Assembly (NCBI RefSeq): GCF_030268965.1
Contig: NZ_BSSE01000017.1
Span: 1-64,000 of the forward strand
Direction of reading: 5' to 3'
Source of the DNA: Microtetraspora sp. NBRC 16547
Lineage (GTDB): Bacteria; Actinomycetota; Actinomycetes; Streptosporangiales; Streptosporangiaceae
Length of the DNA stretch: 64,000 nt
Part shown: in pieces, positions 43,260 to 50,742 of the stretch
Position numbering within the stretch: position 1 is the stretch's first letter
How the letters are laid out: each line of letters begins with the position of its first letter
Notes under the pieces: model-generated
Database searches by the model: none
Told to the model about the DNA's origin: nothing
Seen by the model: only the letters and a program-made list of their open reading frames with translations
Program-made: the position numbers and the translations under genes

Positions 43260-45224
43260 TCAGTCCGCTGCGGAACGCCTGGTCCTGGCCTGCCGGCGGC
43301 GGGCCATCCGGCTGTCCGGCCCGGCGTCCGGCCTGTCCTGGGCCGTGAGATGGCGGGCGAGCGCTCCGACGGTCGGGTACGTGTACAGCGTGGTCAGCGG
43401 GAGCCGCCGCCCGAGCGAGACCTCCAGACGCTGCTGGACCTGGGCCATGAGCAGCGAGTGGCCGCCGAGGTCGAAGAAGTTCTGCCCCCAGCCCACGTCT
43501 GCCACCCCGAGCGCCTCGCACCACGCCACGGCGACAGCCTGCCCGATCTTGGTCTCCTGCTGGGACAAGGAAGCACCGTCTCCGGCGGACACGGCGGGTA
43601 CGGCGGGCGCCGGCAGCGCGCCGGCGTCCACCTTCCCGGTGGGAGTCAGCGGGAAGGACTTCATCGGCACGATCATCGACGGCAGCATGAAGTCCGGCAG
43701 CGTGGAAGCGAGCCTCCGCCGCAGCGCGGCAGCGTCGACCGCGTCGACCGCGTCGGCCGCGTCGACCGGGTTGCCCGGGTCGCCGATCACGTACGCCACG
43801 ATCCGCCGTTCGCCCCGCACCTCGCGGGCGACGACCGCGGCCCTGGCCACCTCGGGCAGCGCGGCCAGCGCCGCCTCGACCTCGCCCAACTCGACCCGGT
43901 GGCCGCGTATCTTCACCTGCCGGTCCAACCTGCCGAGGTAGGCGATCCGGCCGTCCGGCAGCCTGCGTCCCAGGTCTCCGGTCCGGTAGTACCGCATGCC
44001 GTCCGGGTCCACGCCGAACCGAGCCTGGTCGCCGTCCGGGTTGCGCCAGTAGCCGGCCAGGTGGGGGCTGCGGATGACGATCTCCCCCTCGGCCTCCCCC
44101 TCGGCCTCCCCCTCATCGCCGGCCGCCTCCCCGCCGGTCCGGCACAGCTCGATCTCCGCTCCGTGCAGTGGGAAGCCGATCGGCACCACCCCGGCGCCGG
44201 TCCCGCGACCGGCTCTGATGTCCGCGGTGGACAGATGGTTCTGGATCGCGAAGGAGATCTCGGTGGCACCGTACCCGTTGACGAACACGCAGTCGTCGCC
44301 GAAATGACGGAGGAACCGGTCCAGGTCATCGCGTACCACCTCCTCCCCGCCCAGCACTACGGCCCGCACGCTCGGGAGCCGGCCGTCGGCGGCCAGTGCG
44401 TCGAGCAGGTAGCGGTAGACCGTCGGGGTGGAGTGGTAGATCGTGACTCCGCGCTCGGTGAGCACCTCCGCAAGGTGAGTCAGGCCGTGCCTGCGCATAT
44501 CCACCGGCACCACGGCCGCGCCGTTGAGCAGCGCGGAGAAGCTGTCCGTGACCGCCATGTCGAAGCTGAACGAGGAGAGCACGCTGGTCCGGTCCGAGGG
44601 CCCGATCCGCAGGTTGTTGGTGTGCGTGCGGATCTGGAACAGCGCGTTGCGGTGGGTCTGCACCACGCCCTTCGGCCGCCCGGTCGATCCGGAGGTGAAC
44701 AGGATGTACGCCGCCGCGTCCGGATCCACATCCACCGGCTCGGCGGGCGGAGCCACCGGGGCGGGCGGCAGTTCGGTGATGTCCAGCACCTTGGCACCGG
44801 CGAGCAACGCGTCGGCGAGTCGGCGGTGGCCCGGCCCGGCGATCAGGAGGTCGGGTTCGGCGAGCTGCGCCATCCGGGCCAGCCGTTCCGCCGGGTAGTT
44901 CGGGTCGAGCGGGACGTACGCCGCTCCGGCGGTGAGCGTGCCGAGAATGGCGGCCAGCGTGCCGGGACCGTGGTCGAGCAGCAGCGCCACCCGGCCGCCC
45001 GGGGAGGTGTGCGCCTTCACGGCCGCCGCGACGGCGCGCACCTCCCCGGCCAGCTCGGCGTAGCTGAGCGTGCGGTCGTCCCCGATCACCGCGAGGCGGT
45101 CCGGGTGCTCCTCGACCACCCGCCAGAAGCGGGCCGCGATCGACTCCTCCAGCCACTCGGCGCGGAACTCCCGGTGCCCGGGGTCGCCGCTCCCGTGCAC
45201 CGCCGCGAACTGGGCCTCAGCCAT
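43260..45224 (-). CDS. NRPS stand-alone A-T protein
   Basis: 654 residues. The A domain (about 25-560) has YILFTSGSTGRPKGVVQTHR, the A4 region FSFDMAVTDSFSALLNGA, NGYGATEISFAI, YYRTGDLGR and TGKVDAGALP. The T domain carries the phosphopantetheine site at Ser590 (FFDLGGHSLLMAQ). Hand alignment gives the specificity code D-M-T-H-V-G-G-F-A-K, which I do not recognise; Asp235 supports an amino-acid substrate. Its ATG overlaps the stop of the NRPS-MFS gene (8 bases). There is no C domain, so the activated residue must be passed on in trans. The A-T-C-T protein of this cluster has a last T domain without an A domain, a possible target. Confidence 0.85.
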   Translation of the reverse strand: MAEAQFAAVHGSGDPGHREFRAEWLEESIAARFWRVVEEHPDRLAVIGDDRTLSYAELAGEVRAVAAAVKAHTSPGGRVALLLDHGPGTLAAILGTLTAGAAYVPLDPNYPAERLARMAQLAEPDLLIAGPGHRRLADALLAGAKVLDITELPPAPVAPPAEPVDVDPDAAAYILFTSGSTGRPKGVVQTHRNALFQIRTHTNNLRIGPSDRTSVLSSFSFDMAVTDSFSALLNGAAVVPVDMRRHGLTHLAEVLTERGVTIYHSTPTVYRYLLDALAADGRLPSVRAVVLGGEEVVRDDLDRFLRHFGDDCVFVNGYGATEISFAIQNHLSTADIRAGRGTGAGVVPIGFPLHGAEIELCRTGGEAAGDEGEAEGEAEGEIVIRSPHLAGYWRNPDGDQARFGVDPDGMRYYRTGDLGRRLPDGRIAYLGRLDRQVKIRGHRVELGEVEAALAALPEVARAAVVAREVRGERRIVAYVIGDPGNPVDAADAVDAVDAAALRRRLASTLPDFMLPSMIVPMKSFPLTPTGKVDAGALPAPAVPAVSAGDGASLSQQETKIGQAVAVAWCEALGVADVGWGQNFFDLGGHSLLMAQVQQRLEVSLGRRLPLTTLYTYPTVGALARHLTAQDRPDAGPDSRMARRRQARTRRSAAD

Positions 45225-50742: not shown

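Follow-up and report, generated by a model that had tools for sequence, protein, structure and literature searches.

A terminal nonribosomal peptide synthetase module fused to an ObiF1-like cysteine thioesterase and an exporter in Microtetraspora: a possible route to a beta-lactone

As a rule, an assembly line and its exporter are made as separate proteins. The window analysed here, a stretch of 64,000 nucleotides from Microtetraspora sp. NBRC 16547 (contig NZ_BSSE01000017.1, positions 1 to 64,000), raises the question of what is released, and where, when a terminal nonribosomal peptide synthetase (NRPS) module, its thioesterase (TE) and a major facilitator superfamily (MFS) transporter form one polypeptide. 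The reading that we favour, held at just under an even chance, is that of a synthetase-exporter, the terminal module of an assembly line of NRPS and polyketide synthase (PKS), in which a cysteine TE would form a beta-lactone and the fused MFS domain would export the product at the membrane. The gene begins with GTG and encodes 1841 residues in a single frame with no internal stop. Condensation (C), adenylation (A), carrier (T), TE and MFS domains follow in that order, each Pfam domain above its curated cut-off, and this bears out the preliminary description of this DNA, which had placed C-A-T, TE and transporter in one frame of that length. The parts of the gene are as follows.

45217..50742, minus strand: NRPS termination protein C-A(Ser)-T-TE(Cys)-MFS, 1841 aa
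49264..50580, minus strand: condensation domain, residues 55-493 (Pfam PF00668)
47767..49200, minus strand: adenylation domain, residues 515-992, code DVWHISLVD (Pfam and A-domain code)
47500..47700, minus strand: carrier (T) domain, residues 1015-1081 (Pfam PF00550, PP-binding)
46705..47448, minus strand: ObiF1-like thioesterase, residues 1099-1346 (sequence, fold and tree)
47209..47211, minus strand: codon of the nucleophile Cys1178 (GHCGVGG), which pairs with the ObiF1 Cys in the alignment
46864..46866, minus strand: codon of Asp1293, the position II aspartate, which pairs with the ObiF1 Asp in the alignment
46774..46776, minus strand: codon of His1323 (residue numbering by script)
46558..46704, minus strand: TE-MFS linker, 49 aa (residues 1347-1395), with a WWL motif
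45343..46557, minus strand: MFS exporter domain, residues 1396-1800 (Pfam, AlphaFold2 model)

Pfam divides the A domain into AMP-binding (residues 515-862) and AMP-binding_C (residues 920-986), scores the Thioesterase domain (residues 1109-1337) at 46.3 bits against a cut-off of 26.4, and scores the transporter at 82 bits for MFS_1 (residues 1404-1739; cut-off 33.4) and 48.8 bits for MFS_3 (cut-off 27). An AlphaFold2 model of TE, linker and MFS (mean pLDDT 81.9, pTM 0.69; linker and part of the TE lid poorly modelled) gives an alpha/beta hydrolase fold and, after it, some 12 long helices, in agreement with the 12-helix transporter proposed earlier, against nine strong MFS segments by hydropathy alone. 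The catalytic triad first proposed, Cys1178, Asp1293 and His1323, was obtained again with the same residue numbers by script. The serine-type A domain that had been noted was found both in the fusion protein itself and in the module just upstream, where the code is DVWHVSLVD; two consecutive modules thus carry codes that we take to specify serine. Chance or a sequencing error hiding a stop is ruled out as the cause of the fusion, because 158 other sequences with distinct letters share it.

The search for NRPS-TE-MFS fusions in actinomycetes that had been proposed revealed a widespread architecture in many genera. With the window TE as query, matches at E<=1e-20 occur in 121 of the 297 genomes searched from the window's order (own genome included; as many as seven matches in a single one). 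In the Micromonospora costi family 83 of 200 genomes have a match at E<=1e-40, and across the phylum at least 5 of 396 have one at E<=1e-20 (own included; at most six candidates scored per genome). A restriction to one family, suggested by the phylum-wide search, was dropped, given that relatives occur in Micromonospora, Actinoplanes, Embleya, Streptomyces and others. In contigs of named genomes, at least 366 of at least 597 pattern stretches encode relatives, and the best 80 of these at least 366, which make up the locus set from those contigs, span Micromonospora, Nonomuraea, Microtetraspora, Planobispora, Actinoplanes, Dactylosporangium, Catellatospora, Embleya, Streptomyces and others. The window's genome has two more copies, and plasmids of Streptomyces clavuligerus and Embleya bear fused copies that stand outside the counts given next.

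All 40 places hand-picked across the ranking of the order-wide search are fused, as are 79 of the best 80 loci, the last being ended by a contig edge. Among 166 TEs with distinct cores and an alignment score above 230, many of them near relatives and not independent, 159 are joined in frame to an MFS domain; the exporter fusion first described is both real and conserved. The seven unfused TEs are five distant ones (L082-L086 in our locus numbering, families f5 and f23), one at a contig end (L121) and L228, whose MFS is encoded immediately downstream in a different frame and shares 95% identity with that of a fused relative, L236. Across this large family the TE and the MFS are kept together. 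Two loci, L198 and L199, encode C-T-TE-MFS proteins without an A domain, placed after a C-A(Ser)-T protein. In another (L227:4319-6625) a frame of 769 aa consists of TE and MFS alone, with Gly at the nucleophile position (GHGGA) and again no A domain seen; its TE is perhaps kept for a non-catalytic role.

What kind of TE has been joined to the exporter? By sequence and fold it is ObiF1-like, and by tree less firmly so, which upholds the likeness to the obafluorin synthetase ObiF drawn in the preliminary description. The best PDB match of the single TE sequence is ObiF1 (E 7.6e-31), followed by BorB (2.5e-21). A profile of 43 TE sequences ranks ObiF1 at 1.2e-44, BorB at 1e-25, SulM at 9e-19 and RifR at 2.7e-17, with surfactin TEII also among its matches, and the top Foldseek match of the predicted model is again ObiF1. 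Support for the fused TE-MFS clade is 99/97 in a tree of 125 TEs that separates three type II TEs at 100/100. ObiF1 is the sister of the fused clade at 98/71, the SH-aLRT value of 71 lying under the tool's joint threshold and the branch being long; SulM groups with the five unfused distant TEs (98/66).

The catalytic layout agrees with this placement. Across the 159 fused TEs the nucleophile is Cys in 148, Ser in 10 and Gly in 1, the Asp and His are present in all 159, and the preceding-strand position, which holds Asp in EntF-type TEs, is Gly in 154 and Ala in 5. A Cys nucleophile, initially considered rare, is thus the rule in this actinomycete family. EntF-type TEs combine a Ser nucleophile with the usual Asp, and the window TE has Cys1178 and, at the position of that Asp, Gly1205. 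Papers are cited here by PMC number, for the portions of their text that were available. The ObiF1 triad is Cys1146/His1284/Asp1254, with the Asp shifted and Gly1173 where EntF has Asp, and in a C1146S variant the outcome shifts mainly to hydrolysis (PMC6668435). According to a 2024 paper, ObiF1 and SulM are the only solved NRPS TEs whose Asp occupies position II; each forms a four-membered ring (PMC11298585).

The nucleophile can be compared with the code of the terminal A domain. The 148 Cys-TEs follow serine codes in 91 cases, Asx-like codes in 28 (DFT 16, DLP 6, DLT 5, DLL 1), Cys-like codes in 15 and DVRN in 4; five have no A domain seen, and DFL, a DTE-type code, DARS, DMPQ and an Orn-like DVGE occur once each. 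The substrate names attached to these codes are our assumption. Among 147 close homologues, the terminal code is of the DTE type in 10 of 10 Ser-TEs, against 1 of 137 Cys-TEs (L137). This pattern fits a Cys retained for attack by the side chain of the last residue.

In the mechanism that we propose, the finished chain, ending in Ser-Ser, would pass from the T domain to Cys1178 of the ObiF1-like TE, and the hydroxyl of the C-terminal serine would most likely attack the Cys1178 thioester, releasing a beta-lactone. Since the TE is fused to the MFS, release would occur at the membrane beside the exporter, possibly with direct handover from TE to MFS, and the MFS, joined by the 49-aa linker, would pump the product out. 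From the sequence, the fusion is likely to couple release and export. A serine beta-lactone as the product is plausible, at or somewhat short of the confidence that we give to the synthetase-exporter as a whole.

Several points weigh against the beta-lactone. The ten Ser-TEs form one clade nested inside the Cys clade (support 99), so the contrast between Cys and Ser is one evolutionary event and not ten. Some Cys-TEs follow codes without an obvious beta-nucleophile, namely L137 (DT-type), L235 (Orn-like DVGELGSVD), L233 (DARSLSQMT), L234 (DMPQVGLVW), four with DVRNTGIMD and 16 with the Asp-like DFT. The tree carries a long-branch warning, which touches the place of ObiF1, and includes just two further type I TEs that have Cys or position II Asp, and none of the EntF type. 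No MbtH-like domain was detected by Pfam in the fusion protein, unlike ObiF1, whose substrate, a beta-hydroxy-homophenylalanine, also differs from the serine of the window's code. In the wider tree of PMC11298585 ObiF1 and SulM cluster with type II TEs, and the available text of that paper also describes AB3403, which pairs a Cys nucleophile with an Asp at position I, the usual one, and has no known product. The DFT loci count here as well, with a TauD-type hydroxylase gene in 0 of 15, a lower bound based on similarity clusters.

A serious alternative, to which we give somewhat less than an even chance, is that the Cys-TE hydrolyses, makes a larger lactone ring, for instance through another hydroxyl of the chain, or oligomerises like EntF; no strained ring would form, and the MFS would export what results. 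The EntF line likewise terminates with Ser, and its lactone has no four-membered ring; the two consecutive serine codes provide more than one internal hydroxyl, and the terminal codes of the Cys family are as varied as for a general release TE. The intermediates of EntF and ObiF1 are compared in PMC6668435. This alternative is opposed by the position II Asp and the preceding-strand Gly, the layout of ObiF1 and SulM, and by the association of the Ser-TE clade with a different terminal code. A strict rule by which a Cys-TE always implies a beta-nucleophile on the last residue was considered, and is ruled out by L137, L233, L234 and L235. Cys alone does not predict a beta-lactone, because the Cys family also has Asx-, Cys- and Orn-like as well as unassigned codes.

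Whether the beta-lactone reading of the window protein extends to its relatives is more doubtful: that the ObiF-type Cys-TE family in general closes strained C-terminal rings and hands the electrophile directly to the exporter on the same chain appears to us rather unlikely. If it were true, beta-lactones would arise from Ser or hydroxylated Asx and beta-thiolactones from Cys, the reactive product would be kept from diffusing in the cytosol, and the Ser-TE clade would be the natural hydrolytic counterpart. TauD-type hydroxylase genes were counted by similarity clusters in 120 loci, giving 36 of 75 with DVW and 6 of 6 with DLP codes, both lower bounds, with flanks that differ in length between loci. 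The identity of the TauD protein was confirmed by Pfam in the DLPK locus L058, and a hydroxylase of this kind is a possible source of the beta-hydroxyl in the DLPK loci.

Those loci (L051-L054, L058 and L059) are compact, with a single C-A-T-TE-MFS module bearing DLPK. TauD and glycosyltransferase genes are each present in 6 of 6, and a carrier protein in 5 of 6, whose N-terminal part, without a Pfam match in L058, we take to be FkbH-like. Genes resembling 2-oxoacid dehydrogenases lie near many of the Cys- and Asp-coded loci (L049 and 20-22 of the 120 loci); in L049 an E2 component was recognised by Pfam, and the E1-like genes were judged by eye.

The transporter may be less than an exporter of the peptide. 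It could be a membrane anchor for the synthetase, or export another compound of the cluster; we consider this improbable. MFS fusions of unknown role do exist, for example the sensor-kinase-MFS family described in PMC3924187. Against a mere anchor, which would not need it, stands the conservation of the transporter: MFS motif A is found in 148 of 151 sequences, and mean distances are 0.40 for TE, 0.46 for MFS, 0.47 for A and 0.52 for C, which puts the MFS on a level with the catalytic domains. GxGRG near the last MFS helix occurs in 136 of 151. Of the six domain pairs tested for correlated distances, TE-MFS ranks first, both in 123 four-domain sequences (TE-MFS 0.89, C-MFS 0.86, TE-C 0.86, TE-A 0.74, C-A 0.74, A-MFS 0.64) and after thinning to 53 (0.82, 0.67, 0.65, 0.54, 0.47 and 0.42, in the same order). 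By Foldseek, the modelled MFS fold is close to that of drug exporters, MdfA and QacA among them, and the domain scores 178 bits against TIGR00900, under the cut-off of 319.6. The TE-MFS linker measures 17-133 aa in 145 sequences, with a median of 39; it often has a Trp-x motif (WW in 48 of 145), modelled as a strand in the window protein.

It is very improbable that the fusion carries an editing type II TE, attached in cis, that clears mis-loaded carriers. In favour of this reading, type II TEs too have their Asp in position II, BorB, RifR and surfactin TEII are among the PDB matches, and ObiF1 and SulM join type II TEs in PMC11298585. Against it, ObiF1 clearly outscores the type II TEs, the cluster has a type II TE of its own (GHSMGG), and editing type II TEs stand alone, use Ser and group with RifR and BorB, whereas the window TE lies in cis after T, has Cys, as do 148 of the 159 fused TEs, and is split from the three type II TEs in the tree, contrary to the clustering with editing enzymes alone that had been named as a possible outcome.

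The synthetase-exporter is encoded within an NRPS-PKS cluster on the minus strand. In order of genes, this comprises a type II TE fused to Lant_dehydr_N, an A-T-C-T protein, a PKS module with ketosynthase (KS), acyltransferase (AT), ketoreductase (KR), dehydratase (DH) and acyl carrier protein (ACP) domains, a C-A-T module, the C-A-T-TE-MFS protein and an A-T protein. Adjacent genes share 4 bases, or 8 at the junction with the A-T gene; only the PKS and C-A-T genes are set apart, by a gap of 329 bases. The neighbours of the fusion gene are:

63132..64000, minus strand: 3' part of the type II TE + Lant_dehydr_N fusion gene, which runs past the window (L002:3132-6398)
59638..63135, minus strand: NRPS A-T-C-T
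54191..59641, minus strand: PKS module KS-AT-KR-DH-ACP
50739..53861, minus strand: NRPS module C-A(Ser)-T, which overlaps the fusion-gene start by 4 bases
43260..45224, minus strand: A-T protein, whose likely ATG start overlaps the last 8 bases of the fusion gene; retained in related clusters

In Bailinhaonella (L034, L206) and the genome G183 (L036, L207), blastp found relatives of the KS, type II TE + LanB-like, A-T-C-T and A-T proteins, with the type II TE and LanB-like parts fused and A-T-C-T 71-72% identical to that of the window. Nonomuraea antri (L035) has the A-T, the end of A-T-C-T, the PKS and the terminal module. Microtetraspora glauca (L209, L038) has the type II TE and LanB-like protein as separate genes and an A-T-KS protein, and Micromonospora costi (L214, L088) has a type II TE + LanB gene and a second LanB-like gene; in both, the penultimate code is Asn-like, where the window has Ser, and a TauD gene is present. 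None was found in the first 95 kb of the window's contig with two TauD queries at E<=1e-5. Lantibiotic-dehydratase-like proteins of such clusters are amide-bond-forming PEARLs in one studied case (PMC11212132).

Other features of the region were observed. In the serine module upstream, the C-domain motif is HHSICDA instead of the usual HHxxxDG. Beyond the window, L002:8017-10506 encodes a nucleotide-binding-like protein fused to DUF6002, the two being separate genes in Bailinhaonella (L206) and G183 (L207); by eye, DUF6002 looks like a pyridoxal phosphate enzyme of fold type II. Elsewhere in the window, an MFS gene of 452 aa (35726-37084) has a copy at 39210-40306, 98% identical over 285 aa, the end of which is read in a different frame: a recent duplicate in decay.

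Among the open-licence papers that literature searches brought up, judged by titles and the opening lines of abstracts, none deals with NRPS-TE-MFS fusions, and the matches to 'TE-MFS' concern fungi by title. The term 'peptide synthetase' occurs 0 times in the available text of the sensor-kinase-MFS paper (PMC3924187), and the literature on S. clavuligerus pSCL4 and Actinoplanes SE50/110 (PMC3364876), so far as its text was available, adds nothing on the fusion; the architecture may nevertheless be known to others. With synthetase, ObiF-type TE and exporter conserved on one chain, the coupling of release to transport can be put directly to the test, and many clusters that are still uncharacterised become candidates for making electrophilic products like beta-lactones. 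For the role of the Cys, nature already offers a comparison in the clade where Cys became Ser.

Several known systems share parts of this arrangement. The sna (threopeptin) cluster likewise has a lantibiotic-dehydratase-like protein (PEARL) within an NRPS-PKS cluster, with a stand-alone thioesterase and two transporters, and the term MFS occurs 0 times in the available main text of the sna paper. EntF and EntS resemble the window protein in having a serine-loading terminal module C-A-T-TE, release by the TE and an MFS_3-type exporter, although the EntF model scores 583 bits on the window protein, well under its cut-off of 2400. EntF has a Ser TE, and its exporter EntS is a separate protein. 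Unlike the window TE, the EntF TE also has Asp in the usual position (PMC6668435). The SulM TE of sulfazecin shares the Cys nucleophile and the position II Asp; it differs in its Gln-Cys-Asn motif, its diaminopropionate substrate and its beta-lactam product (PMC11298585), and in being a weaker profile match with another place in the tree. ObiF1 has an MbtH-like domain after the TE, no transporter, a beta-hydroxy-p-nitro-homophenylalanine substrate and a proven beta-lactone (PMC6668435), where the lactone of the window TE is only predicted. Both have the TE after T, the GxCxG Cys, the position II Asp and a Gly on the preceding strand.
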